In this document: positions 8,337 to 36,104 of the stretch, piece by piece
Layout: each line of letters starts with the position of its first letter
Numbering within the stretch: position 1 is the first letter of the stretch
Virus record (IMG/VR): IMGVR_UViG_3300035698_006554
Coordinates: 1 to 37,038 of that record
Length of the DNA: 37,038 bases
DNA from: a virus
Direction: 5' to 3' (one strand)
Translations under genes and position numbers: made by a program
The notes under the pieces: generated by a model
The model's input: only the letters and a program-made list of their open reading frames with translations
What the model was told of the DNA's origin: nothing
Databases searched by the model: none

Positions 8337-8840
8337 ATGGGTGCGGTTGTAGATTTATCAGGAATCAAAGAGCAAATGCGAGTTATATTAGATGCTAACA
8401 ATGTTTCGTCTTCAACGGTCAGGGATTTATCTGAAAACCTTATAGAACGAGTGAAGTTAATAACAAAGCAAAATCCTAACCTAGTCAGCATGGGAATGGA
8501 TAAAGTGCCAGGTGTTGCTATTTGGATTGAGGGGAAAACTCCGAAAGCTGAAGGCATTGTTAAAAACCAAATGACCGCGCAAAAGAGTGCGGAAATATCC
8601 ATTAAAGTAGCTGGCTTTGTTTATAATTCAGCATGGTCGAGCGTTGACAATATTGATTCGGATACTGATGCGGAATCACTTGCCGAAAACATAGAATATA
8701 TATTACGATCTAACGACACCTTTAATAGTACAGTGAAATGGCAAAAGATAACTGACGTAACATTTCACAACGTATCATTGGGTGAGGCATCTAATTTTAA
8801 GGTCGCGTTGTTAGATTACACGGCAAAGGTTTTTTATTAA
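8337..8840 (+). CDS. Putative tail terminator protein
   Basis: This 167-residue protein starts at ATG 8337, one base after the stop of the gpG-like gene. Its alternating helix and strand pattern (IKEQMRVILDA, LSENLIERVKLI, GVAIWIEGK, AEISIKVAGFVY, HNVSLGEASNFKVALLDYTAKVFY) and its position just before the tail tube gene in a siphovirus order fit a tail terminator, which caps the tail tube and docks it to the connector. No diagnostic motif is visible. Its TAA overlaps the ATG of the following glycosyltransferase-like gene by one base, so the two are translationally coupled. Confidence 0.58.
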   Translation: MGAVVDLSGIKEQMRVILDANNVSSSTVRDLSENLIERVKLITKQNPNLVSMGMDKVPGVAIWIEGKTPKAEGIVKNQMTAQKSAEISIKVAGFVYNSAWSSVDNIDSDTDAESLAENIEYILRSNDTFNSTVKWQKITDVTFHNVSLGEASNFKVALLDYTAKVFY

Positions 8841-9823
8841 TGAATGCTGAAGAGATAAAAAGACAATCTGAAAATGCTTACAATCAATGGTGCGATAAAT
8901 GGCGTACACATTGCGCAATCCATTCAAAGTTTGAAATGCTATCTATGAACGACCTTTGGGGTAAGGGTATCGGTAAATCAATCCTATGTATCGCCAATGG
9001 TTATTCGTTCGAACGTGACTCGGAATTTATTAAAAAGAATCAGCATAAATTTGATATTATTTGTTGCGATAAAACCCTAGGCAATTGCTTAGATAATGGG
9101 ATTATTCCAAAATATTGCATGGTATGTGATGCTGTAGTTGATTACGAAAAGTATATGAAGCCGTGGAAAGATCAATTATCTAAAGTGACCCTATTAATGA
9201 ACTCATGCGGTAACCCTTTGTGGGCGCAAAATGGAACGTGGAGAAATAAGTATTTCTTTGTCAATAAAGATATCCTTGGAAGTGAAAAGGAATTCTGCAA
9301 AATTTCTGGATGCCCGAATGTAATACCAGCGGGGACGAATGTCTCGAATGCAATGGTTGTCATACTCACGCAATGCGACGAGAAGGGATATAATAACTTC
9401 TTTGGATACGACAAGATTCTCTTATCAGGATTCGACTATTGTTGGAGCGATGGAAAATACTATGCTTTCGATGGTGAGGCCGGAGGTAAGAATAATTATA
9501 TGCGTCATATATACACATCAAACCGAGAAGATAAGTATTGTTTTACATCAAACAATTTAATGTTTTCCGCAAGATGGCTCCACAAATATGTGGAGACGTT
9601 TAAACTCCCTGTCGTTCAATGCTCAAAAGATACAATTCTGACACTTAATCGCAATGGATCCATTGAAGACCATGCAGGGTATAACTTTAAACGTGGTGAT
9701 TCTGCCATGGTTCGCAACATGGCAAAAAAGAAGAATGACTTTATTAATGAAATTAAAAAAATTGACTGTATAATGAAAGACGTAGGTAGTGACCACGCAA
9801 ACGCTTTTCTAGCGACAGTTTAA
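8840..9823 (+). CDS. DUF115/Maf-type glycosyltransferase-like protein
   Basis: The protein has 327 residues. It shows the pattern of the DUF115 group, which includes flagellin-modifying Maf proteins and the archaeal enzyme MptE: a beta strand and glycine turn SILCIANGYSFERD (47-60), FDIICCDKTLGNCLDNGIIPK (71-91) and YCMVCDAVVDY (92-102), then IPAGTNVSNAMVVI (162-175) and LLSGFDYCW (194-202). Maf proteins are thought to attach nonulosonic acids (pseudaminic or legionaminic acid) to serine and threonine of flagellin. Here the gene overlaps the tail terminator gene by one base and is followed at once by the tail tube gene, so it is co-expressed with tail proteins. Thirteen cysteines are unusual. 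Activity and substrate are inferred; MptE-like chemistry cannot be excluded. Confidence 0.68.
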   Translation: MNAEEIKRQSENAYNQWCDKWRTHCAIHSKFEMLSMNDLWGKGIGKSILCIANGYSFERDSEFIKKNQHKFDIICCDKTLGNCLDNGIIPKYCMVCDAVVDYEKYMKPWKDQLSKVTLLMNSCGNPLWAQNGTWRNKYFFVNKDILGSEKEFCKISGCPNVIPAGTNVSNAMVVILTQCDEKGYNNFFGYDKILLSGFDYCWSDGKYYAFDGEAGGKNNYMRHIYTSNREDKYCFTSNNLMFSARWLHKYVETFKLPVVQCSKDTILTLNRNGSIEDHAGYNFKRGDSAMVRNMAKKKNDFINEIKKIDCIMKDVGSDHANAFLATV

Positions 9824-9835
9824 GGGAGTTTTTTT

Positions 9836-10867
9836 ATGAACGGATCAGGTAGCAACATATCAGCATTTTCTTACATTGCAGTTGGTAGAGAAGCCGCATA
9901 CGGAACTTATGTGACTAGTACCTCGGGCATTGACTTCCTTTCCGGTGCCATCAAGACTACAAAAGAGGGTAAAATACTCGAAGAGATTCAACGAAGCCGA
10001 ACACAATACTCCAGGTTGTCGTTGAGCAAAAAAGTTGAAGGTGAAATCGAATTATACTATAGACCTGATTCAACAGCATGTGGTTACTTTCTTGAAAACG
10101 CTTTTGGCGGATCTGTTACATCAACAGAATTAACAACAGGGGCATCATACTCCCATGAATTTAATATCGGTTCTATGGACCTTACAAATACAGCTCTTTC
10201 TATCAATGCTCGAAAAGGCGATGATACTAACGGAAATGTTTTTGAATACACTGGTGCTAGAATTAATGAGCTTAGCTTTTCTGCTGAATTAGACGATGCT
10301 CTTAAAATGTCCCTTGCTCTTATATGTAAAGACTCAACACAAACAGCTAACGATGTTGAAGACGCTCTAACAATATCAGCGCAAGAAGTTTTCTCATTCG
10401 TAGGCGGAAGATTTTCAATAGCTGCCACTGAAGCATCACTAACAAGTACATCATACTGGCATGTTCAAAATATTGATTTTAAATTAGCTAACAATCTAAA
10501 AGCCGATAATGATTCAAGACGTATCGGGTCTGACGTGTTAGAAATTTGTCCGGTTGGAATCGCAAGCATGGAGCTTGGCGTAGGCATGAGATACGATACT
10601 ATAACCGCATATGATGCAATGATGGATGGTACTGTTCTCGCTGGTGAGTTTGAATTTGAAGGCGACACGCTAACAGGTTCATCAATAAGAAAAAGTTTAA
10701 CTCTAACATTTCCAAGAATATATGTTAATGATGCTGGCGACCCTGAAATTGGCGGTCCGGACGAAATATTAAAAAGTGATGTTTCATTTCATGTATTGAG
10801 AAATACAAACGCAGCGGCCGGCTTTGCTTGCAAGGCCCTATTAATAAATGGTGCAGCTTCAATCTAA
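9836..10867 (+). CDS. Major tail tube protein
   Basis: The 343-residue protein has AGGGAG upstream of ATG 9836. The beginning (SYIAVGREAAYGT) and the pattern of long beta strands (EGEIELYYRPDS, SINARKGDDTNGNVFEYTGA, LDDALKMSLALICKD) fit the Gp41-type tail tube family of siphoviruses. The C-terminal part (ELGVGMRYDTITAYDAMMDGTVLAGEFEFEG, KSLTLTFPRIYVNDAG) includes a strand-rich segment typical of tube proteins. Proteins of this family stack in hexameric rings round the tape measure. It lies directly after the glycosyltransferase-like gene and is rich in S and T, which makes it a possible glycosylation target. Confidence 0.84.
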   Translation: MNGSGSNISAFSYIAVGREAAYGTYVTSTSGIDFLSGAIKTTKEGKILEEIQRSRTQYSRLSLSKKVEGEIELYYRPDSTACGYFLENAFGGSVTSTELTTGASYSHEFNIGSMDLTNTALSINARKGDDTNGNVFEYTGARINELSFSAELDDALKMSLALICKDSTQTANDVEDALTISAQEVFSFVGGRFSIAATEASLTSTSYWHVQNIDFKLANNLKADNDSRRIGSDVLEICPVGIASMELGVGMRYDTITAYDAMMDGTVLAGEFEFEGDTLTGSSIRKSLTLTFPRIYVNDAGDPEIGGPDEILKSDVSFHVLRNTNAAAGFACKALLINGAASI

Positions 10868-16865: not shown

Positions 16866-17801
16866 ATGAGATATTTAATTTACAGACTAAAATACAAATA
16901 TGCCCAATACTTAAGACTAAAAAAACCTGTTGATGTTACCCTCGAATTATCTTCCAAGTGCAATTTAAAATGTCAATACTGTTATCACTCAAGCCCTAAA
17001 ACTTTACCATTCGAAAGAAAGTTTATGACATTTACAGCATCAACAAAAATACTTAGTGATGCTGCAAGAATGGGAGTACATAGCTTAAAGTTTAATTGGC
17101 GTGGGGAATCGCATTTGCATCCTTCGTTCTTAAATATAACTTCTTTCGCAAAAAATCTTGCGAAGGGATCGACATTCATAGATAGAATATCAAACACAAA
17201 CTTTGATTTTAATACATCAAGCGACGATATATTCAAAGCATTTTTAAACCAAACTAAAGTTAAAATCTCACTTGATAGTTTACGACAAGAAGTTTTAGAC
17301 GCACAAAGAAGTGGTGCCAATCTTAAGAGAATTTTAGCTAACGTTGATATGTTTTATAATTGGCCGGGTCGTACTACAAAGATAGTCATTCAAGCAGTAA
17401 AAACAAAACTTAATGAAGATGAAAGTTTAAAAGAAGAATTCCAAAATAGATGGCCGGGCGTTGAAATAAGTATTAGAGATATGGTCGATGGTCGCAACAA
17501 TGACAACACTGACCTAAGTACAATGAAGCGCGATACTAAAAAGCGAATGCCATGCAAGCAAGCCTTTGCAAGATTAATATTTGATTCTAGTGGGGTAGCA
17601 ACGATGTGTTGTCCTGACATTAAAAACGATTTTAAAGTAGGCGATATAAACAACCAATCATTAAAAGAGATATGGAATAGCTTTAGGCGAGTAGAACTTA
17701 TTAAAATGCTTCGTACGGGTGAGCTTTTCAGATACGAGCCATGTAGTTCATGCTCAAGTTTTGAATCATACAACGGTCACAAACATAAGTGGGAATCATG
17801 A
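16866..17801 (+). CDS. Radical SAM enzyme with SPASM-like C-terminus
   Basis: The protein has 311 residues. CNLKCQYCYH (32-41) is the CxxxCxxC cluster that binds the 4Fe-4S centre and S-adenosylmethionine. WRGESHLHP (78-86) fits the radical SAM glycine/SAM-binding strand. The C-terminal PCKQ (229-232), CC (248-249) and CSSC (293-296) cysteines with GDINNQSLKEIW (259-270) are typical of SPASM domains that bind auxiliary clusters. Such enzymes carry out oxidations, dehydrations or epimerisations, including on sugars. AGGGAG lies at 16856-16861. It overlaps the sugar-activating gene by four bases (ATGA), so the two are co-translated. The substrate is unknown. Confidence 0.85.
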   Translation: MRYLIYRLKYKYAQYLRLKKPVDVTLELSSKCNLKCQYCYHSSPKTLPFERKFMTFTASTKILSDAARMGVHSLKFNWRGESHLHPSFLNITSFAKNLAKGSTFIDRISNTNFDFNTSSDDIFKAFLNQTKVKISLDSLRQEVLDAQRSGANLKRILANVDMFYNWPGRTTKIVIQAVKTKLNEDESLKEEFQNRWPGVEISIRDMVDGRNNDNTDLSTMKRDTKKRMPCKQAFARLIFDSSGVATMCCPDIKNDFKVGDINNQSLKEIWNSFRRVELIKMLRTGELFRYEPCSSCSSFESYNGHKHKWES

Positions 17802-19120
17802 AAACAGCAATTATAATTTGTAGTAGAACCGACTCCGACAGATACCCAAATAAATGCTTTGAGCAGATACACGGTAAGCCTGTCCTATACTGGCTATTGA
17901 CGCGATTGCAAAAAACAAATTTACCTATCTATGTTGCAATTCCTCGAAATGATGTTGGCAATTACGATTCTATCAAAGGCATGAAAAACGTTGAAGTTGT
18001 AGCTGGTGATTATAACCCGATGGTAAGAATGTATGATGTTGCTAAAGTAAATCATGTTGATAATATTATTCGTATTTGCCATGATAAAATATTTGTAGAG
18101 CCTAAAATGGTTACTGATTTTGTAGGTGATTTTGTTAAGTATAATTTCATGGAAGATGCACAATATCTTTACAGTGATAAGTTTACTGATGGCACCGGCT
18201 TTGAAATATTTACTTTCGATATCCTCGAAAAAGCAATGAGACAATCTAAAGTAAAAATAGAGCATATCGCATATGCTATAAGGTCGGTCACTGACAAAAT
18301 AAAAAATGTATCGGTGCCTATGATCTATAGATCCGACGAAAGGCTATTGATTGATTATCCTAAAGATTTAGAATCAATGCGTGATATATTTTCAAGAAAA
18401 GATTTATTAAAACCGCTTGAATGTGTATTAGAAGGGCTAGACCACAAGCCAATGAATAACAAGCTCCCGTTGATAACAGTCTACACTTCGGCTTATAATG
18501 CTGAAAAATGGATAGTAGATTGTATCAATTCTGTTGTTTATCAAAAGGACGTAACCTTTGAATTTTTAGTTTACGATGATTGTTCAACAGACAATACAGT
18601 AAAAATAGTTGAAGATTTAAAATTAAAATTTCCGACCTTCAATAAAAAAATTCAGCTTAGTAGAATGCTACTTAATAGCGGACTAGCTTCCAACTCAAAC
18701 AGGGCATTATCTGAAGCAAAAGGTAAATATATAATAAGGCTAGATGCTGACGATTATTTCACAAACTTTTATGTGTTAGATATGATGGTTGACTACATGA
18801 TTCTGCATGATCTTGAGGCCCTATATCCTGACAACCAATTTCAAAAAGGCAATGAGAACCATCATGTCGGTTGTGCAATGTTCAAAACGAATGCTATCAA
18901 TGCGATTAAATTTAATGATAAGCTTCGAGGATTTGAGGGTTATGATTTTTTCTTAAGAGCAAAAGATATTTTAAAGATTGGATACATGGATCAAGTAACC
19001 TATCATTATCGTCAACATGAAGATAGTATGAGTAAAACGAATCTGGAAGATCGAAAAAAAATCAAGGATGAAATACAATGTCAGTTCAGAAAAGAAAGTA
19101 TCCTAACGTATCAATTATAA
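17798..19120 (+). CDS. Cytidylyltransferase (SpsF/CMP-NulO synthetase-like) fused to GT2 glycosyltransferase
   Basis: The 440-residue protein starts at ATG 17798, which overlaps the radical SAM stop. Residues 1-200 form a nucleotidyltransferase: IIICSRTDSDRYPNKCFEQI (5-24) is the signature CTP-binding loop, as in SpsF and CMP-sialic/nonulosonic acid synthetases. Residues 224-420 are a family 2 glycosyltransferase: ITVYTSAYNAEKWI (226-239), VYDDCSTDNTVKIVEDL (258-274), RLDADDYF (314-321, with the DXD metal-binding motif) and a GYDFFLRAKDI acceptor-side block (381-391). The fusion would couple making an activated sugar with its transfer. The sugar is not proven. It overlaps the next gene by 43 bases. 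Confidence 0.86.
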   Translation: MKTAIIICSRTDSDRYPNKCFEQIHGKPVLYWLLTRLQKTNLPIYVAIPRNDVGNYDSIKGMKNVEVVAGDYNPMVRMYDVAKVNHVDNIIRICHDKIFVEPKMVTDFVGDFVKYNFMEDAQYLYSDKFTDGTGFEIFTFDILEKAMRQSKVKIEHIAYAIRSVTDKIKNVSVPMIYRSDERLLIDYPKDLESMRDIFSRKDLLKPLECVLEGLDHKPMNNKLPLITVYTSAYNAEKWIVDCINSVVYQKDVTFEFLVYDDCSTDNTVKIVEDLKLKFPTFNKKIQLSRMLLNSGLASNSNRALSEAKGKYIIRLDADDYFTNFYVLDMMVDYMILHDLEALYPDNQFQKGNENHHVGCAMFKTNAINAIKFNDKLRGFEGYDFFLRAKDILKIGYMDQVTYHYRQHEDSMSKTNLEDRKKIKDEIQCQFRKESILTYQL

Positions 19121-19506
19121 CTATTATGGGGTTAGGCCCTAAAGTTTGGCGTAAGAAATTATGTGAAGCTGTTAGGCAAAGAAATCTAGAATTTTTAGTG
19201 TCATTACAATACGGTATTCAAGCTGATATGACAGACCTTGCGAAACGAGGACAGTCAAATCCAAATATTGAAGAATCATTTCTTAGAATCTCAGGCTCTA
19301 TTAATCGAGCAATAAAAGAAACTGCCAGGAAGAACAACAAGCCTATGCCAAATATTAAGGCATATGAAAAGCTTGCTGCGAAAAGAGGTATTAGTATTAA
19401 CTCGGACGAAGCGAGGGAAGCTAAGGCAATGTTTACCAAACAATACAGAGAGAAGAAAGAACAGGACGTGGAACTAGAAAAGTTTATTAAAAGTAAAAGT
19501 TTTTAA
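19078..19506 (+). CDS. Unknown basic helical protein in glycan cassette
   Basis: This 142-residue protein is not recognised. It is rich in K and R (WRKKLCEAVRQRNL, KETARKNNKPMPNIKAYEKL, FTKQYREKKEQ) and mostly helical, with no cysteine cluster or membrane span. ATG 19078 lies 42 bases before the end of the upstream gene and has AAGG at 19064-19067, so translation is probably coupled; ATG 19126 is an alternative start. It sits between the activating/transferase gene and the NeuB-like gene. It may be an accessory or nucleic-acid-binding protein. Confidence 0.5.
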   Translation: MSVQKRKYPNVSIITIMGLGPKVWRKKLCEAVRQRNLEFLVSLQYGIQADMTDLAKRGQSNPNIEESFLRISGSINRAIKETARKNNKPMPNIKAYEKLAAKRGISINSDEAREAKAMFTKQYREKKEQDVELEKFIKSKSF

Positions 19507-19518
19507 CAAAGGGATAAC

Positions 19519-20230
19519 ATGACAATACTAATTTCAGAAATCAGTAATTGCCACATGGGAAGCATGACAAAGGCAAAACAACTAATAAAAGCGGCTCACG
19601 AATCTGGTGCCGACCTGATCAAGGGTCAAGCTTTCGTTTATGCTGACGTTGCAAAATATGGATCTATGCCAATTGAGTTTTTATAAACAGTGTCAGCTTA
19701 ATGTATGGGAATGCGAAGAGTTAATTGATTATGCCAGGTCTATTGGCTCGGATATGTTCTTTTCAATATTCTCAAAAGAGTTTGAAATAATAGAGTCAAT
19801 GCAGAATTACAGTAAATTTTCAGCGGCTCAAACCAAAGAACTTCAAACATCGAAAACAAAAATATGTGATAGTGACAAAGATAATATTTTTATGTCAGTA
19901 AATGATGTTAATTCGTTCCGTGAAAAAAGCCACGGTTACTACTTTGAAAAAACAAAGTTAATGTATGCTACCGATTACATGGAAGACGACACACATAAAG
20001 TTGTAACAAACGTTGCACTGATTGCCGAGCAAGCGGCTACATATGGGTTAAGTGATCATTCGCTAGGCATAGATAACTGTATTGATGCCGTGATTGATTT
20101 TGATGCCGAGATAATAGAAAAGCATTTCACACTAGAAAAGAATGTAACTTTCAAAGGTAAGATATTCCGCGACACCGTTCATGGTGCTACACCGAAAGAG
20201 TTTGAACAATTAGCGAAAGCAATTAAGTAG
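19519..20230 (+). pseudogene. NeuB-like nonulosonic acid synthase, one-base frameshift, no SAF domain
   Basis: NeuB-type enzymes condense a six-carbon sugar with phosphoenolpyruvate to make sialic, legionaminic or pseudaminic acid. The first part (19519-19686) reads ISEISNCHMGSMTKAKQLIK and DLIKGQAFVYADV, then hits TAA at 19684. Skipping one T of the five at 19678-19682 joins it to the second frame at 19682, giving IEFYKQCQL and continuing to 20230. The second part has the family hallmarks YGLSDHSLG and IIEKHFTLEKN. The joined product has 236 residues, a TIM barrel only; the usual C-terminal SAF (antifreeze-like) domain is absent. ATG 19519 has GGGATA upstream. The indel may be real, a sequencing error in a homopolymer, or a +1 frameshift site. 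Confidence 0.78.
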
Positions 20231-20235
20231 GTTTT

Positions 20236-20607
20236 ATGTCAGCAAGTTTTGAATATGATTGCCCGATAAATATTCGCTCACAACTCGACGATTGTAGTTC
20301 AATTCCTCAACTTAGATTTTGCGTTAACACTAATAAGACATATATCACTAGGGGAATAATTTACGATGCTGTAGTTAAAAGAATTAAATACATCTGTAAA
20401 TTAACGATGTACGATATCGAGATAGTAGAGGATTTTTTAATCGATGTTGAAATATACATGGAGACAAACAAAAGGATAACGCCAGAGGAATACAAGGGCT
20501 TTGTTAGATGCAAGTGCTGTAATGCTAAGATAATTTCAAGGCACTCAACAGCTAGAAAGTTTTGTAGTTTAGAATGTTATTATATTTATACTAGGGGAAG
20601 TAAATGA
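20236..20607 (+). CDS. Small zinc-binding protein, unknown function
   Basis: This 123-residue protein ends with two CxxC-type pairs, RCKCCNAKII (about residues 91-100) and KFCSLECYYIY (about 108-118), a likely zinc ribbon. The rest is helical (IIYDAVVKRIKYICKL, YDIEIVEDFLIDVEIYM). No enzyme motif is visible. Its stop overlaps the start of the following methyltransferase gene by four bases (ATGA), so they may act together. Confidence 0.6.
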   Translation: MSASFEYDCPINIRSQLDDCSSIPQLRFCVNTNKTYITRGIIYDAVVKRIKYICKLTMYDIEIVEDFLIDVEIYMETNKRITPEEYKGFVRCKCCNAKIISRHSTARKFCSLECYYIYTRGSK

Positions 20608-21950
20608 AGTGTATTATTTGTGATTCAACAGACCAATGGGAAAATGTAGACCAATTTAGAATTAAAAAAATAGGCATGAGCATATGTAAAAAATGCGGGT
20701 TTGTTAGTTATCCGGAGCATTGGGAAAACTTTAAAAAAGATGATTCTACATTTACCGACTTATCGCCCGTTGAGAAAATGCAAAAGTTTTATTCTGAAAC
20801 ATATAGAAGACCTCCACACGCTCACAATCTATTTAGCGGTCAAAAGAAATTACATTATCATGCTGCATTTTTAAATAAATATTTCGAAGATTGGAATAAG
20901 AAAGAGAATTTTGAAGTATGTGACGTTGGAGCTGCTTACGGTTTATTTCTTCATTGGTTTAAACAGATGGTGCCGAATGCCACGCTATCAGGGACCGAGT
21001 GGGCGACAGCATATAAACGAAATGCTTATCATGAGTTTGGAATTAACTTAACTGACGAAGTTGATAAGTCTAAAAAATATGATTTAATTTCACTGTATAA
21101 AGTTGCCGAGCATTTTCTGGATGCTGACAAAAAGCTTATCGAATACAAAGAACTATTAAACGAAGGCGGTATGATCTACGTTAGTATTCCGATTTGGTTT
21201 GATATGTTTTATAATTTCGGCACTGGAAATATGGATCTTGAGTATCTATATAGCGTTGAACACATTAACGTTTGGTCGCGAAAACTCTTCAGACAACTAC
21301 TTCGAAAAGTAGGTTTGCAAGTCGTAGAGGAAAACTATACTTATTACGATGATTCATATCTATGTACCCCATGTGATCCGGTTCCAGTAGATCAATTAGA
21401 CCTCGAAGACTACCAAGAAATTAAAAAGATAATGCATAAATACAAGGTAACAAATGATTTAAAGAGTGAAGGCAGTATTGAACAAGCACTTGAATCGTGG
21501 GCTAAATCACCTTTGCTATGGATTGAATTTTACGAGCGTAATAGAAAGAAATTCCATGATCTTGGTCTAGAACATATTATTGCTAATCTTATCGAGCCAG
21601 CAAAAAAAGCATGTCCGAACTCGGCAGAAATTTTCGGTCTAGTTGGTGATATCTTTATGCGCTACAACAAATATAAAGATGCGCTCGGAGCATTTCAGAT
21701 AGCTCTTAATATGCGCCCAAATGCCCCTATCTACCTTTCAAGAGTAGCGAGCTGCTTTCGTATGCTTGCCGACAATGAAACAGATCCAGCAGCTAAAGTG
21801 AATCACCTATTAGAGTCTAGGAATATATCAAGGCATGTTAAATCAATTTCATTCCAAAACTTTGAGGAAATGACTTCATGGATCTATGCGGATAACTCCA
21901 ATATTCCAACACCTATGGAAATTACGCAATGTGCTAAAACAGAAAGCTAG
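20604..21950 (+). CDS. Zinc-binding SAM methyltransferase with C-terminal TPR region
   Basis: The protein has 448 residues. CIICD (3-7) and CKKCG (28-32) make an N-terminal zinc site like that of nucleotide-sugar C-methyltransferases. A class I methyltransferase follows: NFEVCDVGAAYGLF (102-115) is the SAM-binding glycine loop, with a DLISLYKVAEHF motif about 60 residues later. Residues about 345-410 resemble tetratricopeptide repeats (AEIFGLVGDIFMRYNKYKDA, PNAPIYLSRVASCF), which bind partner proteins. The combination fits methylation of a sugar or nucleotide-sugar, or of a protein, in the glycan cassette. It is the last gene before the lysis genes. Confidence 0.76.
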   Translation: MKCIICDSTDQWENVDQFRIKKIGMSICKKCGFVSYPEHWENFKKDDSTFTDLSPVEKMQKFYSETYRRPPHAHNLFSGQKKLHYHAAFLNKYFEDWNKKENFEVCDVGAAYGLFLHWFKQMVPNATLSGTEWATAYKRNAYHEFGINLTDEVDKSKKYDLISLYKVAEHFLDADKKLIEYKELLNEGGMIYVSIPIWFDMFYNFGTGNMDLEYLYSVEHINVWSRKLFRQLLRKVGLQVVEENYTYYDDSYLCTPCDPVPVDQLDLEDYQEIKKIMHKYKVTNDLKSEGSIEQALESWAKSPLLWIEFYERNRKKFHDLGLEHIIANLIEPAKKACPNSAEIFGLVGDIFMRYNKYKDALGAFQIALNMRPNAPIYLSRVASCFRMLADNETDPAAKVNHLLESRNISRHVKSISFQNFEEMTSWIYADNSNIPTPMEITQCAKTES

Positions 21951-22017
21951 AATAATTTAACATATTAGTTTATACTATTATGGTTGAGAAGAATAAAAAC
22001 CCATGGAGGGCATTGAA

Positions 22018-22272
22018 ATGAAAAAACTATTATTTATGATTATTGTATTATGTTTAGCATCTTTATCTTTTGCGCAAGAAGTTGTTGCCGTTGCTGCTCC
22101 TGTTGCCGAAGCAAGTAAATTTACTGTTGTAGCTGTTCTAATTGGTGGCTTTGTATTTGCTATAATTGAATTTATTATAGGTAAAACAAGTTTGGTAAAA
22201 GAAAACTCAACACTTGATTTAGTTCTAAAAGCTGTAATGAAAATTATATCGTTGTTCTTGCCTAAAAAGTAA
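22018..22272 (+). CDS. Small membrane protein with signal sequence, putative holin
   Basis: ATG 22018 follows GGAGGG at 22004-22009; an ATG at 22003 overlaps that site and is rejected. The 84-residue protein starts with a signal-like KKLLFMIIVLCLASLSFAQE (cleavage likely after FA) and has a second hydrophobic segment, FTVVAVLIGGFVFAIIEFII (about 40-59), then a basic end (SLFLPKK). Size and architecture fit a holin or holin-like membrane protein. It is followed by another membrane-associated gene with TAATG overlap. Confidence 0.62.
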   Translation: MKKLLFMIIVLCLASLSFAQEVVAVAAPVAEASKFTVVAVLIGGFVFAIIEFIIGKTSLVKENSTLDLVLKAVMKIISLFLPKK

Positions 22273-22595
22273 TGACTAAAAAAGTAAATTGGACGGCCGT
22301 TTTCTCGGTCGTCCTTCAAACCTTATTTAAAATATTTGGAATGGGTTTAGTTAAAAAGTTTGTAGAAAAGCTTTTGATTAAACTCATTGGCGCAAGTACA
22401 GGTTTTCAATTATGGCTTATCAAATTTATAGGTGAGAATTTAATAAAGCAAATTCTTGAGCCTCTTATAAATGCTGCGATAGTTGAAGGCAAATATCATA
22501 TTGAAGTGCATAACAATAAGGTAGCATTGATAAAAATGGAGGATGCACAAAGTGAATCTGAATATTATGATGGTCTTAATGACCTTCTTGATTAG
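22272..22595 (+). CDS. Small membrane-associated protein of the lysis module
   Basis: The 107-residue protein starts at ATG 22272, sharing a base with the previous stop. It contains hydrophobic/amphipathic helices (TAVFSVVLQTLFKIFGMGLV, FQLWLIKFIGENLIKQILEP) and basic residues between them, then a polar, acidic C-terminus. It may be a holin partner or antiholin. A strong hairpin at 22291-22314 is embedded in its first codons. It overlaps the next gene's start region. Confidence 0.55.
   Translation: MTKKVNWTAVFSVVLQTLFKIFGMGLVKKFVEKLLIKLIGASTGFQLWLIKFIGENLIKQILEPLINAAIVEGKYHIEVHNNKVALIKMEDAQSESEYYDGLNDLLD
22291..22314 (+). other. GC-rich hairpin in the start of a lysis gene
   Basis: GGACGGCCG (22291-22299) pairs with CGGTCGTCC (22306-22314), nine base pairs including one G-U, around a six-base loop. 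This is striking in AT-rich DNA and lies 19 bases after the ATG at 22272. It could slow translation of the gene; a short T-poor tail argues against a terminator. Confidence 0.55.
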
Positions 22596-22890
22596 TTGCT
22601 GCGTCAACCAGAAAACCATCTGCGAGCAAATTAAAAAAGAAAGATTTACGCCAGCCCCATACTGCCAAATTAATTTTGAATATAATAAATGCCAATGCCG
22701 ATGCTATGACTATAATGAACATAAGTCGTTAGCCTGGCGCGAGTGTAACATTGATATAGATGGCAAAGCTCCCACGTATCACGAAATTGGATTTTGCCAC
22801 GAACTAGTAGGTCATTTTCCGGAAGCTATAGCTGACATTAAAGCTAAATCTAAACGGTTAAATAATCTCTGGATTAATCTTTGCAAATAG
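22552..22890 (+). CDS. Cysteine-rich lipoprotein, possible outer-membrane spanin-type lysis protein
   Basis: The protein has 112 residues from GTG 22552, which has GGAGG at 22538-22542; ATG 22543 directly abuts this site and is rejected. The beginning NLNIMMVLMTFLISCC is a lipoprotein signal with lipobox LISC. Many further cysteines follow (QIKKERFTPAPYCQINFEYN, KCQCRCYDYNEHK, ECNIDIDG). It may be tethered to the outer membrane, as spanin lipoproteins are, but the sequence is not a typical Rz1. It overlaps the previous gene by 44 bases in another frame. Lipobox implies a host with bacterial lipoprotein processing. Confidence 0.62.
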   Translation: MNLNIMMVLMTFLISCCVNQKTICEQIKKERFTPAPYCQINFEYNKCQCRCYDYNEHKSLAWRECNIDIDGKAPTYHEIGFCHELVGHFPEAIADIKAKSKRLNNLWINLCK

Positions 22891-22985: not shown

Positions 22986-23162
22986 CTAGTCGTTCTTAAA
23001 ATCTTCGGTATGTTTATTGTCAATGTCGCATGTAGCATTTTCACTAGAAACAACTTCATCTTTTTGATTTATTTCCTTATCTTTCTTCCCAAATATCTTT
23101 TCGAAATTCTCTTCAAACTTCTTTGTGAAAGGTCTTGATTTACCATCTAAAAACGTTCCCAT
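22986..23162 (-). CDS. Short hydrophilic protein downstream of lysin, unknown
   Basis: Read on the - strand, ATG ends at 23162 and TAG at 22986, giving 58 residues. The start overlaps the stop of the lysin gene (TAATG) and GAGG lies upstream, so it is probably translated. It is highly charged (FLDGKSRPFTKKFEENFEKI, KKDKEINQKDEVVSSENA) with no motif. A + strand reading frame over the same region is considered a shadow. Function unknown. Confidence 0.6.
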   Translation of the reverse strand: MGTFLDGKSRPFTKKFEENFEKIFGKKDKEINQKDEVVSSENATCDIDNKHTEDFKND

Positions 23163-23527
23163 TAATACCTCAACTTTACACTAGCAACCAAGTCAGACCT
23201 TCTTGATATAGGTCTAACCCTTGTACCTTCAACCGCACTCTCTACCATAAGCTTACAATCAATCGCTATAGCTGTATGTGTGATACTACTTGTATCCTCA
23301 CCAAAAAATAATATTGAATCTTTTTCAACTGATGTATTGATTCCAGTTTTTTTGAGTTTATCGAAAAGCATTTGGCTTGAATAATCAACATCGTCTAAAA
23401 GACCTACAGAACGAAGCATATTATTAACGAATGCGGAGCAATCTATTCCTATTGTTAATGATTCGCCACCGTATTTGTATGGTATTTGTGGATGAAGATA
23501 AAACATTGCTAATTCACTGACTGTCAT
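23162..23527 (-). CDS. NlpC/P60-type peptidoglycan endopeptidase (lysin)
   Basis: The 121-residue protein starts at ATG 23527 (AGGAG with five-base spacing); a longer start at 23557 would encode its own ribosome binding site. IPYKYGGESLTIGIDCSAFV (residues 15-34) has catalytic Cys30, and SITHTAIAID (81-90) has His84, typical of NlpC/P60 cysteine peptidases that cut the peptide of peptidoglycan. It is short, with no binding domain. No signal peptide is evident, so it depends on a holin. It lies in the leftward operon rather than beside the holin-like genes. Confidence 0.85.
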   Translation of the reverse strand: MTVSELAMFYLHPQIPYKYGGESLTIGIDCSAFVNNMLRSVGLLDDVDYSSQMLFDKLKKTGINTSVEKDSILFFGEDTSSITHTAIAIDCKLMVESAVEGTRVRPISRRSDLVASVKLRY

Positions 23528-23561
23528 AAATGCTCCTATTAAAATATTGGCTAACATATAA

Positions 23562-24407
23562 TTACTTTATAACTCCCATATCTCTAAGCCCTTCCGTTAG
23601 GCTAAATTTCATTAAATTCTTAATCATCGGGACTACTTCAGCACATGACTTTTTTATATCACCATCGCGCATGGGTTTTTGTATTGTTTCGCATCCAATA
23701 ATTTCAGCAAGTTTTTTAATTGACGTACTTGTTTCACAACCAACGGTAAAAGTCGCACAATCTACTTTTGACTCATTCAGTAATTCTACAGCTAAATTAT
23801 TTGCATTGACTACATTTTTAACATAAGTAAAATCTCTAGACGTTTCGCCGTAAATATTAATTGCTTTGTTTTCTTCTCGCGCTTGAATCATGTTTGGAAT
23901 AACAGGACCGACTTTTTGCCTATTCCCAAAAACATTAAAATATCTAAGTACGATGTAATCGACTCCCGACATATGCAAATAATCTTCACACGCTTTTTTA
24001 GTTAATGCATATGGTGACTTCATGCCTAGCACTGACGAAGACGAAGCGAAAATAAATTTAGACCTTGGAAAGTATTTCAATAAGCTAATCAGTGGAAATA
24101 AATTGTTTTCGAAATACCTTAACGGCTCGGTTAATGATCGAGGGACACCGCCGAAAGCCGCTTGGTGACAGACTATATCGATATCATATTTTTCGCTTAT
24201 CTCTTTTAGTAACGACCTATTAGATACATTCGCTTGATAGAATTTGAATCTATAGTTGTCCTTATGCTTTTCGATATTGTCCATTGTGGAGTTATTAGTT
24301 GAAATATTATCTATGCCTATAACTTCATGACCATTCGCTAAGAATGAATCGAGTAAGTGAGATCCAATGAACCCACCACACCCGCTCAGAATTATCTTTA
24401 AACCCAT
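23562..24407 (-). CDS. NAD-dependent sugar epimerase/dehydratase (SDR type)
   Basis: The 281-residue protein starts at ATG 24407 behind GGAGG; a TTG at 24419 is less likely. It has the SDR nucleotide-sugar features: SGCGGFIGSHL (8-18) binds NAD, Asp33 follows, IFASSSSVLG (119-128), YxxxK at Tyr133-Lys137 (catalytic), LRYFNVFG (154-161) and RDFTYVKNVV (191-200). Such enzymes convert UDP-GlcNAc/GalNAc or other nucleotide sugars. It is next to the lysin in the leftward operon, away from the main glycan cassette but probably part of the same sugar pathway. Specific substrate is not determinable. Confidence 0.85.
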   Translation of the reverse strand: MGLKIILSGCGGFIGSHLLDSFLANGHEVIGIDNISTNNSTMDNIEKHKDNYRFKFYQANVSNRSLLKEISEKYDIDIVCHQAAFGGVPRSLTEPLRYFENNLFPLISLLKYFPRSKFIFASSSSVLGMKSPYALTKKACEDYLHMSGVDYIVLRYFNVFGNRQKVGPVIPNMIQAREENKAINIYGETSRDFTYVKNVVNANNLAVELLNESKVDCATFTVGCETSTSIKKLAEIIGCETIQKPMRDGDIKKSCAEVVPMIKNLMKFSLTEGLRDMGVIK

Positions 24408-24423
24408 ATTTTCCTCCAATTGT

Positions 24424-27085: not shown

Positions 27086-27921
27086 TACATCCCCCCTCTT
27101 GCTGCTTCTTTTTGTATTAGTAACACATCGCCATAAGATATCTTCCTATCGCCAGTAAAAAGTTTAAGATCATTGTCGTAATACAGTCTCCAATATGTTT
27201 TATTTGCAGATTGATGGTATCTGGCCTTATCAATATGCAATATGCCAGCAGCAGGCTCTAGTTCAAAATAAGTAGACACCATGTAAACGTATGCTGATCC
27301 GTTCGACCATGACCCTGACCCTCTCACGTCCTCACCCGATATTACCGTTTTTCTAATATCAGTACCCTTTTTTGTATGTACGAATACTGCCAATGCTATT
27401 TCATAAGTATCTGCCATTTTCCTAAAATCCGCCATTAATGCACCTTGTTCTTTTGGTGTCATATCTCCCATAAAACTAGTTGAAACGTTATCAACTATAA
27501 CTAAATCAGTCTGGTAGTCGTTGATTACCTCTTCCATTTTTTCAAGTAATTGTTCTGCATTGAGATATTCTTTTCCCCAATTAAGCATAGAGTCTAAGTA
27601 AACCCTGCTTAAATATTTCTCAGGTTTTACCTTGCATCCTTTCGTGATAGCTTCGTTAATTACTTTTTTATAAGAATCGCAAGGTTCTTCTGATAACAAA
27701 CAATAAGTTTTGATTCCGTTTATAGCTGCTTCTACTGCCATGGTTTTACTTATTGTACTTTTACCTTGTCCTGATTTTCCGATAAATACACTTACTTGTC
27801 CTGGCCGTATTCCGTTCGTAGATCTAAGAAAACCCAGCGAAGATGGAATTAATACCTTGTTTTCCGTCAGGTCCGACCGCCTCTTCTCTTCCTCTGTCAT
27901 TATCGCCGTCTGTAATACCAT
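27085..27921 (-). CDS. RecA/DnaB-fold ATPase, replication helicase-like
   Basis: The protein has 278 residues. GKSGQGKST (48-56) is Walker A and TDLVIVDNVS (138-147) is Walker B, followed by VFVHTKKG and a DVRGSGSWSNGSAYVYMV segment, the pattern of RecA/DnaB-type ATPases of phage replication modules. Length is too short for a full DnaB; it may be a helicase loader or a short helicase. ATG 27921 has GGAG with good spacing and lies 98 bases inside the preceding gene in another frame, so the two are overlapping and coupled. Confidence 0.82.
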   Translation of the reverse strand: MVLQTAIMTEEEKRRSDLTENKVLIPSSLGFLRSTNGIRPGQVSVFIGKSGQGKSTISKTMAVEAAINGIKTYCLLSEEPCDSYKKVINEAITKGCKVKPEKYLSRVYLDSMLNWGKEYLNAEQLLEKMEEVINDYQTDLVIVDNVSTSFMGDMTPKEQGALMADFRKMADTYEIALAVFVHTKKGTDIRKTVISGEDVRGSGSWSNGSAYVYMVSTYFELEPAAGILHIDKARYHQSANKTYWRLYYDNDLKLFTGDRKISYGDVLLIQKEAARGGM

Positions 27922-28672
27922 CTAAAAGCTCCGTATGTTTTGGTTCGTATTCTTGCAAGTAACCGTCGAATTTATTTCCGAATAATGTTTCTGGCCTGAG
28001 ATATTTCTTTTCGAAACCACCTTTTAAATAATCAACCATCTTTGCATCTACCACCTTCTTGAAATCTTCCAAAGAGCAATCCTCATTCCACCTAGCTTTT
28101 ACACGCTTTATCAAAATATCAGAATCACATTTGAAAGTTTTGGATGCTCGTTTGTTCAAGTAGTCGGTAATTTCTTTAAACGGAATGTGTTCATGTTCAT
28201 GTTCATGTTCATGTTCATGTTCATGTTCATGTTCATGTTCATGTTCATTGGTATCTATCGATACACATGGAGTAGTCTCTTGATAGGGTATGTTTTCTAG
28301 TTTAAATTTCCGGTACTTATAAAAGTTAATAAATTTAGACACTAACATCGACGAATTATATTTAGTTAAAGTATTTTCGACAGACTTTTGCATTTTGTCG
28401 CCTTTAGAGTTCTTTTGGAAATACTTAACTATCCAAGCAACCCCTTTTTTTTCATCATAAATAACTACTGGTGCTAGGCGCTTAAACGCTTCTGGAATTT
28501 TACTTATACCAAGAACATGCTTTATATAAACCTTACTAGGCTCGAACATTCCAGCCGGATTAATATTCGGGTTGGTTAATAGAAATAAAAAGAGGAGTTT
28601 CGATTTATCAGATAAATTAATAAACCAATCGTCGTCCCAAATACATAACTCAACCAGTTGTTTGGTCGCCAT
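27824..28672 (-). CDS. Replication initiator / replisome organiser with (EH)10 repeat
   Basis: The 282-residue protein has an N-terminal helix-rich domain (CIWDDDWFINLSDKSKLLFL, AGMFEPSKVYIKHVLGI) as in phage replisome organisers, then a tandem Glu-His repeat at residues 143-162, and a C-terminal domain (ITDYLNKRASKTFKC, KYLRPETLFGNKFDGYL, about 166-245) that matches the phage Phg_2220_C family found in initiator proteins. These bind the origin and recruit helicase. The repeat is between the two domains and is a length-variable linker. The helicase-like ATPase follows. Confidence 0.8.
   Translation of the reverse strand: MATKQLVELCIWDDDWFINLSDKSKLLFLFLLTNPNINPAGMFEPSKVYIKHVLGISKIPEAFKRLAPVVIYDEKKGVAWIVKYFQKNSKGDKMQKSVENTLTKYNSSMLVSKFINFYKYRKFKLENIPYQETTPCVSIDTNEHEHEHEHEHEHEHEHEHEHIPFKEITDYLNKRASKTFKCDSDILIKRVKARWNEDCSLEDFKKVVDAKMVDYLKGGFEKKYLRPETLFGNKFDGYLQEYEPKHTELLDGITDGDNDRGREEAVGPDGKQGINSIFAGFS
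28189..28248 (-). repeat. Hexanucleotide repeat, ten copies of GTTCAT
   Basis: Ten perfect tandem copies on the + strand are read on the - strand as GAACAT-type codons, giving Glu-His ten times in the replication initiator. Because the unit is six bases, copy-number change would alter linker length without a frameshift. Perfect identity implies recent slippage. Confidence 0.92.
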
Positions 28673-34355: not shown

Positions 34356-34571
34356 ATGACTTTACCAATCGCAATAACTCTTTTTACAATCGCAGCATGG
34401 GTTTGCTTTTACATACATTGTCACATAACCAGCAAATCAATATTGCTCGATAGTAGCTTTGAAAGAAATGTTATTGTTGGTTTCATGTTCGTGATTATCT
34501 CAACAATGCTAAGTTTGCTCACTGTAGCGACTTGGATAGCTTACTCTATTTCAATTAGGGTAGGTGTTTAA
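34356..34571 (+). CDS. Small two-span membrane protein
   Basis: The 71-residue protein begins at ATG 34356. It has two hydrophobic spans, about residues 4-20 (PIAITLFTIAAWVCFYI) and 38-64 (NVIVGFMFVIISTMLSLLTV, then ATWIAYS), joined by a polar loop (CHITSKSILLDSSFERN). It may be a superinfection-exclusion or late membrane protein. The next gene starts right after its stop. Confidence 0.62.
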   Translation: MTLPIAITLFTIAAWVCFYIHCHITSKSILLDSSFERNVIVGFMFVIISTMLSLLTVATWIAYSISIRVGV

Positions 34572-34572
34572 T

Positions 34573-35130
34573 ATGGAAATTAAATCAACAACAATCGAGA
34601 TAGTACCGATAGATAAAATCATATCGCATCCCGATAATGAAAATATTCACTCTGAAAAACAGATTGGAGTTTTAACACAACTTATTATCGATAACGGTTT
34701 TCGTAATCCATTGGTTGTGTCTAATCGCTCGGGGTTTGTAGTATGCGGAAATGGTAGGCTAGAGGCGGCTAAAATACTCGAAATGGAAGAGCTGCCTGTC
34801 ATGCATCAAGACTTCGAAGACGAAGCCGAAGAAATGCGCCATAGGCTTGCAGATAACGAATTGGCAAGACACGCAACACTTGACCAAGATAAAATGATTA
34901 TCAACATGGAAAAGCTAGATATGGATACTAGAAATTTCAACTTTGAAGATTTTGGAATGATTGACTTTGAAATTATAAATCTCGATGAAATTCCAGATAT
35001 TAAGGAAAGCCCAAAAGATGAAGCGCCAAGTAAATATATTATTGAAGTTGAGTTTCCTAACGATATGGAAATGATGGATATACATGATGATTTAATTCAT
35101 CGTGGATATATCTCAAGGGTCAAAAAATGA
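34573..35130 (+). CDS. ParB/sulfiredoxin-fold (ParB N-terminal-like) protein
   Basis: The 185-residue protein starts at ATG 34573. IEIVPIDKIISHPDNENIHS, GVLTQLIIDNGFRNPLVVSN and VVCGNGRLEAAKILEM (57-72, the GxGR-type motif) identify a ParB N-terminal domain. In phages such proteins often precede DNA methyltransferases and terminases; some have nuclease or CTPase activity. The acidic C-terminal half (EEMRHRLADNELARH, KLDMDTRNFNFEDFGMIDF) is typical of this group. It overlaps the methyltransferase gene by four bases. Confidence 0.84.
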   Translation: MEIKSTTIEIVPIDKIISHPDNENIHSEKQIGVLTQLIIDNGFRNPLVVSNRSGFVVCGNGRLEAAKILEMEELPVMHQDFEDEAEEMRHRLADNELARHATLDQDKMIINMEKLDMDTRNFNFEDFGMIDFEIINLDEIPDIKESPKDEAPSKYIIEVEFPNDMEMMDIHDDLIHRGYISRVKK

Positions 35131-36104
35131 TAAAGCGATACGGCATACCTTATATGGGATCAAAAAATTCTATACTCCAGAAGATTTGTAAAATATTTCC
35201 AAAAGCAGATAATTTTTATGATTTGTTCGGCGGCGGCGGAAGTGTAACGCACTTTATGCTTGAAATAAGGTTTAGGGATTTTAAAACATTTTACTTCAAC
35301 GAAATAAAAAAAGGCATACCAAAATTAATACAAGATGCGGTAAATGGTAAATACAATTATGAAAACTTCAAACCAGAGTTTATTGGACGAGATAAATTTT
35401 TTGCAAGCATAGACGATGAATATATTAGGTGCTTATGGTCTTTTGGGAATAACGGTAAAAGTTACCTGTTTTCAAAAGAGATCGAACCTTATAAAAAATC
35501 TATGCACGATGCAATAATTTTTAATAAGTTTAATGACCTAGCAAAAGAAGTTCTAGGCATGAACTCTTTCAAGGAAGGATATTCCGTTAAAGATAGACGA
35601 CTTTTCTTAAGAAATAGAATTGAATATTACAGAGTTAATGGCATCCCAAAAATACTTCACCAATTCTTGAATGAAAAGCAACTACAGCGACTACAGCAAC
35701 TAGAGCAACTAGAGCAACTACAGCAACTACAGCGACTACAGCAACTACAGCAACTAGAGCAACTACAGCGACCTATTGTTTTTTCAGCATTGAGCTATGA
35801 CGATGTTTTAATCAAACCAAATTCTATCATATATTGCGATATACCATATAGAGGTGCTGCTGATTATGGGAATAGTTTCAACCATGATGCCTTTTATAAT
35901 TGGGCGAATGAGCAAGTAAACCCTGTTTTTATTTCTGAATACAGTTTACCAGACGACAGATTTAAAAAGATATACTCAATTAAAAAAAGGTCACTTTTAT
36001 GTAAGAAAGATAAATCAATTAACACATACAAAGAAGAGAAAATTTTTGTAAATAAAGCAGGGCATAAGGCGTTTGTAAAATATCACGCTGCAAGGAAGCA
36101 ATAA
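35127..36104 (+). CDS. Adenine-specific DNA methyltransferase (Dam/D12 class) with QL repeat
   Basis: The 325-residue protein has RYGIPYMGSKNSIL (4-17) and FYDLFGGGGSV (30-40), the SAM-binding motifs of the D12 adenine methylases, and YCDIPYRG (236-243) as catalytic motif IV (DIPY in place of DPPY). Between them, residues 185-214 are a tandem (Q/R)L(Q/E) repeat encoded by ten nine-base units, in the region that usually holds target recognition. The enzyme probably methylates phage DNA against restriction. It lies between the ParB-like gene and the small terminase. Confidence 0.84.
   Translation: MIKRYGIPYMGSKNSILQKICKIFPKADNFYDLFGGGGSVTHFMLEIRFRDFKTFYFNEIKKGIPKLIQDAVNGKYNYENFKPEFIGRDKFFASIDDEYIRCLWSFGNNGKSYLFSKEIEPYKKSMHDAIIFNKFNDLAKEVLGMNSFKEGYSVKDRRLFLRNRIEYYRVNGIPKILHQFLNEKQLQRLQQLEQLEQLQQLQRLQQLQQLEQLQRPIVFSALSYDDVLIKPNSIIYCDIPYRGAADYGNSFNHDAFYNWANEQVNPVFISEYSLPDDRFKKIYSIKKRSLLCKKDKSINTYKEEKIFVNKAGHKAFVKYHAARKQ
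35679..35768 (+). repeat. Nine-base repeat, ten units, in the adenine methyltransferase
   Basis: Ten units of CAACTACAG, CGACTACAG or CAACTAGAG run without gap, encoding (Q/R)L(Q/E). Point differences between units indicate an older repeat than the one at 28189, but copy number may still vary in frame. Confidence 0.92.

Follow-up and report, generated by a model that had tools for sequence, protein, structure and literature searches.

Sialic, pseudaminic and legionaminic acids and Kdo belong to one class of sugars, the ulosonic acids; does a phage that carries genes resembling those for such sugars make one of its own and, if so, on what does it place it? To our knowledge, glycosylation of phage virions is known in few cases, in which sugars are borrowed from the host. 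The question is raised by a run of genes on the plus strand (positions 16866–21950) of a virus record in IMG/VR, of which we analysed a window of 37,038 nt. An earlier note on this DNA had read the run as four enzymes of a compact pathway resembling nonulosonic acid (NulO) biosynthesis, with the virion or the host surface as target, and knew of no described phage system of this composition; nor did our literature search, which covered openly licensed papers, turn up an account of a phage cassette like this one.

A conserved cassette of sugar genes

Pfam matches confirmed the four enzymes, all encoded on the plus strand. The run opens with a radical SAM/SPASM enzyme (16866–17801; PF13186, E = 3.7e-10; PF04055, 8.3e-6), followed by a fusion of an SpsF-like cytidylyltransferase with a GT2 glycosyltransferase (17789–19120; PF02348, PF00535), a NeuB-type synthase in two parts (19519–19683 and 19640–20230) and a zinc-ribbon SAM methyltransferase with a C-terminal TPR region (20604–21950; PF13489, 1.3e-12). 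Two small plus-strand ORFs within the run had been missed in the first listing. One, at 19078–19506, is a conserved cassette member, with HMM matches after the fusion in clade-A loci and a probable homologue in clade B (hhalign probability 77, E = 2e-5). The other, a Cys-rich ORF between NeuB and the methyltransferase (20236–20607), gave no convincing family in domain-family searches and was rejected as part of the cassette core, most relatives having no counterpart between the synthase and the methyltransferase.

The fusion is full-length in 35 IMG/VR loci, and in essentially all of them the order radical SAM, cytidylyltransferase–GT2, small ORF, synthase, zinc methyltransferase–TPR is kept; chance is therefore excluded as its explanation. 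An independent query was made with the radical SAM enzyme, the first cassette gene in the relatives: of its 24 best loci, 23 have the fusion adjoining, and in the last one the contig stops at that point. A Maf/DUF115-like gene, which lies at 8840–9823 in the window, is present in 22 of the 23 cassette records with a full-length fusion; conversely, the fusion is present in 17 of the 21 records retrieved with the Maf-like gene, the four without it being records of 19–34 kb. The three queries thus each retrieve the same linked genes, rather than single genes at random places in related phages, and the cassette is a true unit. It is also part of the core genome in a large group of bacterial viruses that have yet to be cultivated, its core genes being as diverged as the structural proteins of the lineage. 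Pairwise distances of cassette and structural genes in clade A were uninformative as a test of co-inheritance, because the structural genes are uncorrelated even among themselves.

Genes for hexose precursors are absent from the cassette core. The nucleotide-sugar epimerase that had been counted with the set is indeed present (23562–24419; GalE/TviC/LegB-like NAD epimerase, PF01370, 4.7e-36, with NCBIfam galE/TviC matches below their cutoffs), but it lies on the minus strand and so is not in the cassette operon. Being scattered in the relatives, it was rejected as a core member and belongs to the set only loosely; it is possible that it supplies precursor for the pathway.

The viral relatives were reached through a degenerate NeuB motif; scanning viral contigs with single proteins found none. 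In 50,697 phage records we found no Maf-like gene, full-length fusion or NeuB relative, and the portal protein had only distant relatives there, for example in Bacillus phages. These records together with 84,980 cellular genomes yielded one occurrence of the full fusion, which was seen in phage contigs only; this single match, among the cellular genomes, lies on a phage contig, and lysogeny therefore seems rare.

An exchangeable synthase

The read-through of 19508–20227 matches PF03102 (2.1e-11; 44.2 bits against a cutoff of 22.1), and scores 36.9 bits, far under the cutoff of 399.7, with the NCBIfam NeuB/PseI equivalog model. The frameshift that had been reported in this gene is real: the first 55 codons (19519–19683), with the start SEISNCHMG, resembling AEISNCHMG, and an IKGQ motif, are in one frame, while the remainder (ORF 19640–20230), with matches to the GLSDHSLG and IEKHFTL motifs, is in the next, and the stop at 19684 falls inside a run of T. 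In the relatives the gene is intact, with its motifs conserved; since they keep one open frame, programmed frameshifting was ruled out, and the break in the window reflects a recent lesion or else a sequencing error in the homopolymer. The NeuB-type proteins of this slot have 222–259 residues and end after the barrel, with no C-terminal SAF domain.

In about half of the relatives the slot is occupied by a DAHP-synthase (DAHPS)-type enzyme instead of NeuB. The slot type changes eight times on the fusion tree by parsimony, at least five changes being forced by supported branches, and in one sister pair (L030 and L047) the long proteins flanking the exchanged gene are 64–72% identical, the difference being confined to the slot. 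The DAHPS type retains the PEP and metal motifs, while in nearly all slot proteins RAGTYP or a close variant replaces the E4P motif KPRTSP, so that the E4P-binding KPRT motif of class I-beta DAHP synthases was not found in the relatives' slot enzyme. Judging from their sequences, the two types would share one chemistry, the condensation of PEP with an aldose to give a 3-deoxy-2-ulosonic acid. The proposed likeness to a NulO pathway is supported, but ‘ulosonic acid’ is a better name for the product than ‘nonulosonic acid’, because half of the relatives have the DAHPS type and the NeuB type lacks SAF.

The full-length DAHPS-type proteins match 3-deoxy-7-phosphoheptulonate synthase models at 1e-57 to 1e-81, as would be expected if the genes steered host metabolism, for instance towards aromatic amino acids, and made no phage glycan. 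We consider this very improbable, given that the DAHPS type replaces NeuB one-for-one in the same slot, lacks the KPRT motif, scores below the NCBIfam cutoffs and adjoins a CMP-sugar synthetase.

Probable activation and tailoring of the sugar

In the fusion, the cytidylyltransferase covers approximately residues 4–205 (PF02348, 27.7 bits against a cutoff of 22.6; PDB 6oew, 3e-11) and the GT2 domain approximately residues 226–420 (PF00535, 1.4e-22; PDB 6p61, 3e-14). GT2 enzymes normally use NDP-sugars as donors. When the cytidylyltransferase domain was used to retrieve bacterial or archaeal loci, NeuB lay within 10 kb in 48 of 65, which places the phage domain with the SpsF-like cytidylyltransferases of NulO loci.

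The methyltransferase has an N-terminal CxxC...CxxC arrangement, in which Cys3, Cys6, Cys28 and Cys31 are invariant in 31 sequences. Its predicted structure (pLDDT 94.4) is closest to MtmC (Z = 21.1) and TcaB9 (Z = 19.3), the next family scoring 16, and the modelled fold is that of the sugar C-methyltransferases TcaB9 and MtmC with a Zn-Cys4 site. The phage protein is like TcaB9, MtmC and KijD1 in this fold and in the N-terminal Zn-Cys4; it seems to differ from them in its C-terminal part, which from about residue 300 of the model consists of helical TPR-like repeats.

The radical SAM profile matches the structure of BtrN (PDB 4m7t, 2.3e-16), mainly across the SPASM part. Peptides are the usual substrates of SPASM enzymes, and the NCBIfam matches of the phage protein are maturases, every one below its cutoff, so that a modifier of peptides or proteins (of the RiPP or sulfatase-maturase type), with the sugar genes serving a separate function, must be considered. 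It is, in our judgement, unlikely: the gene always comes first among the sugar genes, we recognised no peptide that could be its precursor substrate, seven of the 65 cellular cytidylyltransferase loci contain related radical SAM genes, and BtrN, the closest solved relative, is a 2-deoxy-scyllo-inosamine dehydrogenase acting on a cyclitol.

A probable Maf-like transferase and its proposed target

The Maf/DUF115-like gene that had been noted at 8840–9823 (plus strand) was confirmed (PF01973, 3.8e-14; 53.2 bits against a cutoff of 34.6). The model of its 327-residue product (pLDDT 93.9) is closest to Maf (PDB 5mu5; Z = 21.5 over 243 residues, 3.2 Å), with HPPK second (8sd5; Z = 15.7), and sialyltransferases at 8–10; SteA and methylglyoxal synthase also rank lower than Maf. 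Residues 11–292 align with residues 238–524 of the 632 in 5mu5; the N- and C-terminal domains of Maf and its flagellin partner are missing, and the protein is therefore Maf-like rather than a Maf. It is probably an ulosonic-acid transferase, although by fold alone it could also be a pterin pyrophosphokinase of the MptE/HPPK kind, and the database name ‘6-hydroxymethylpterin diphosphokinase MptE-like’ is probably misleading for these phage proteins. Maf enzymes take both CMP-Neu5Ac and CMP-Kdo as donors (PMC11339370), so exchange of the synthase would be tolerated. The gene directly downstream encodes a tail tube protein (9836–10867, plus strand; PF18906, 3e-24), as in 70 of 73 loci, and this is our candidate acceptor; the adjacency is weak evidence for that role, since synteny extends over the entire structural block. 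In FlmG, flagellin is bound through TPRs (PMC7591256).

Of the two targets originally suggested, we consider the virion better supported than the host surface. Within 8 kb of the cassette, across the 35 loci, only one ORF has four or more predicted transmembrane segments, and the membrane flippase and polytopic transferase of an O-antigen-converting (Gtr-type) module were not found there. This near absence of polytopic membrane proteins speaks for a soluble, Maf-like route. It also counts, with the apparent rarity of lysogeny and the position of the Maf-like gene inside the structural operon of the relatives, against placement of the sugar on host capsule, LPS or flagellin, where it might block superinfection or change the receptor, much as O-antigen conversion does. 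That outcome seems to us rather unlikely, even though there are known cases of phage enzymes that modify the NulO of their host (PMC12053666), GT2 enzymes are typical of surface glycans and the Maf-like protein could act on host flagellin.

Proposed pathway and relation to known systems

We think it fairly probable that the cassette is a soluble, cytoplasmic, Maf-like O-glycosylation system that makes a 3-deoxy-2-ulosonic acid and attaches it to a virion protein. From the computed gene set, gene order, slot exchange, folds and motifs we infer the chemistry of each step, the virion target and the acceptor. The slot enzyme, of the NeuB or DAHPS type, would condense a host-derived aldose with PEP; the SpsF-like domain would form the CMP ester of the acid; and the Maf/DUF115-like protein would, still in the cytoplasm, move the acid onto serine or threonine of the virion protein, the counterpart of what Maf does to flagellin. 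The radical SAM and C-methyltransferase-like enzymes would tailor the sugar, for example by ketone oxidation and then C-methylation, and the GT2 domain may add or extend a sugar.

The closest parallel is the Maf glycosylation of flagellin from CMP-pseudaminic or CMP-legionaminic acid, which is likewise soluble, uses no lipid carrier and comprises a NeuB-type synthase, a CMP-activating enzyme and a transferase of the DUF115/Maf fold. The phage set differs in its stand-alone transferase, devoid of the Maf flanking domains and encoded beside the tail tube rather than flagellin, in a synthase exchangeable with the DAHPS type, and in its additional radical SAM and C-methyltransferase enzymes. The legionaminic acid pathway of the Bacillus subtilis sps genes (PMC7439481) shares the motif spacing of an SpsE-like NeuB and an SpsF-like cytidylyltransferase; in the phage, however, the latter is fused to GT2, NeuB has no SAF and the core lacks the precursor enzymes SpsM, SpsC, SpsD and SpsG. 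The epaA and epaB genes of an Acinetobacter prophage (8-epipseudaminic acid) are also phage genes acting on a nonulosonic acid, but they alter host-made pseudaminic acid on the host capsule (PMC12053666), whereas here synthesis, activation and transfer are all phage-encoded, by phages almost never found in host genomes. Virion glycosylation has also been inferred in mycobacteriophages such as Maravista (PMC11256854), whose own glycosyltransferases are believed to act on a structural protein. Neither ulosonic-acid synthesis nor a Maf-like transferase is known to have been described in them.

Small stand-alone Maf-like transferases and an SAF-free NeuB are on offer for glyco-engineering. For phage biology, the set presents a lineage with a predicted soluble acidic-sugar pathway among its core genes and a flagellin-type transferase inside its morphogenesis block, and thus a system in which the reasons for decorating phage particles can be tested. 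As a more tentative proposal, which we hold only as a possibility, this lineage of tailed phages builds a branched, C-methylated ulosonic acid and uses it to O-glycosylate a virion protein, be it the tail tube or another, the exchangeable synthase serving as a cartridge that changes the sugar. If so, the sugar would differ between close relatives, perhaps varying how the particle is recognised.

Conservation of the cassette

The genes that the earlier note had combined into a phage glycan cassette with nonulosonic-acid-like enzymes were all found at their positions in the 37,038-base IMG/VR virus record, which also encodes a Mu-type portal/head protein, a tail tube and a collar/fibre gene. We began the search for relatives with a degenerate NeuB motif, which gave four phage contigs with identical gene order, and an alignment of the cytidylyltransferase-GT2 fusion retrieved 35 full-length fusion relatives in viral contigs, a few of them near-duplicates or seed-contig repeats (e.g. 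L028/L029, L032/L033, L049/L050, L034, L047 and L056). The order in these loci is radical SAM, fusion, (small ORF), a slot for a PEP-dependent synthase, and methyltransferase-TPR; the L041 contig stops ahead of the slot, and L059 has no assigned slot enzyme separating its fusion from the methyltransferase. Extra sugar enzymes, namely NAD epimerases and a UDP-glucose-dehydrogenase-like protein, occur in the slot region of L054, L058, L059 and L060.

With the Maf-like gene (8840-9823, +) as query, 80 loci were obtained, and the tail tube gene lies directly downstream in 70 of the 73 where this is visible. The fusion was present in 17 of 21 Maf-like-gene records searched whole, the other four being records of 19-34 kb; reciprocally, 22 of 23 fusion-bearing records carry the Maf-like gene. 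Radical SAM as query gave 24 strong loci, with the fusion adjoining in 23. Synteny thus bears out the proposal that the set is a unit, since all three queries (fusion, Maf-like gene and radical SAM) lead to one linked group of genes. Within clade A, one group of these relatives, mean identities of cassette proteins (42-54%) are close to those of structural proteins (33-47%), suggesting a similar age for cassette and virion genes, although identity by itself is no proof of co-inheritance.

More distant viral loci include L251, L252, L259, L069 and L076, possible outgroups in which radical SAM occurs with cytidylyltransferase/GT2 and/or NeuB or DAHPS in rearranged order, and L257 and L264, with two tandem radical SAM ORFs (in L257 alongside a Mu-type portal). 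The individual parts and principles of the cassette are already known; we found no description of the combination, its phage context or the exchangeable synthase in the CC-licensed literature.

Elsewhere in the window, a small two-TM ORF and two overlapping small ORFs (22003-22890) follow the cassette as a possible holin/spanin set. An NlpC/P60 endopeptidase lies at 23162-23557 (-), and a replication-type protein (27824-28672, -) contains a run of about ten Glu-His repeats. A Dam-like methylase (35127-36104), which contains a stretch of LQQLEQL repeats, adjoins a ParB-like gene (34564-35130), with a second methylase nearby at the contig end.

An exchangeable synthase

In about half of the relatives, the NeuB position is occupied by a PF00793 (DAHP synthase type) protein, and L039 carries both types on one contig. 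A tree of 34 fusions implies eight changes of slot type, at least five of which are forced by supported branches. L030 and L047, whose long flanking proteins are 64-72% identical, differ solely in the slot, and DNA similarity picks up again where the methyltransferase gene begins. Both families condense PEP with an aldose to a 3-deoxy-2-keto acid. The DAHPS-type proteins keep the PEP and metal motifs, and the erythrose-4-phosphate motif KPRTSP reads RAGTYP, so that their aldose is probably not erythrose 4-phosphate. The NeuB type stops after the barrel and lacks the SAF domain. In the meningococcal enzyme an arginine of this domain is in contact with the N-acetyl group; the substrate of the phage NeuB type therefore need not be ManNAc. 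In the window, the NeuB frame (19519-20230) is split near 19,684, with a stop at 19684 in a T run. The other NeuB-type copies examined have a single open frame, so the break is specific to this record, either a sequencing error or a recent lesion.

Predicted activating, tailoring and transfer enzymes

A search of 84,980 genomes gave a single full-length fusion, carried by a phage contig within a Pricia MAG. Of 65 bacterial and archaeal loci with separate cytidylyltransferase relatives, 48 have NeuB no more than 10 kb away, seven a related radical SAM and two a Maf/DUF115 protein. These neighbours link the domain to ulosonic-acid loci without recourse to its Pfam name. In the Myxococcales loci L159 and L160, GT2, NeuB and cytidylyltransferase-type matches stand in a row, possibly a cellular counterpart of the cassette.

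The methyltransferase model (pLDDT 94.4) best matched MtmC, TcaB9 and KijD1, three sugar C-methyltransferases, at Z about 18-21; all other structures scored 16 or below. Its four zinc cysteines are invariant, as are His170 and His220, which, from motif position, may correspond to the catalytic His of TcaB9. The closest solved structure to the radical SAM profile is BtrN, mostly through the SPASM region. We hypothesize that the radical SAM enzyme would form a ketone and that a C-methyltransferase dependent on an adjacent ketone would then act on the sugar; this order would be chemically coherent.

For the DUF115 protein, an AlphaFold2 model (50 sequences, pLDDT 93.9) best matched the Maf glycosyltransferase 5mu5 (Z 21.5 over 243 residues); archaeal HPPK came next at Z 15.7, and sialyltransferases scored about 8-10. 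The predicted fold is thus Maf-like, but without the flanking domains of Maf; BFVD annotates viral relatives as MptE-like pterin kinases.

Probable destination of the sugar

No cassette protein needs a membrane, and near the 35 cassettes just one ORF has four or more predicted TM segments. Taken together, three observations favour glycosylation of a virion protein: TM ORFs are scarce, the Maf-like gene lies within the structural operon, and host genomes almost never contain the cassette. With lower probability, the acceptor could be host flagellin or another host molecule. The tail tube is a candidate acceptor, and only that because the whole structural block is syntenic. By analogy with flagellin glycosylation (PMC11339370, PMC7591256), the cassette sugar would be placed on a virion protein in the cytoplasm.
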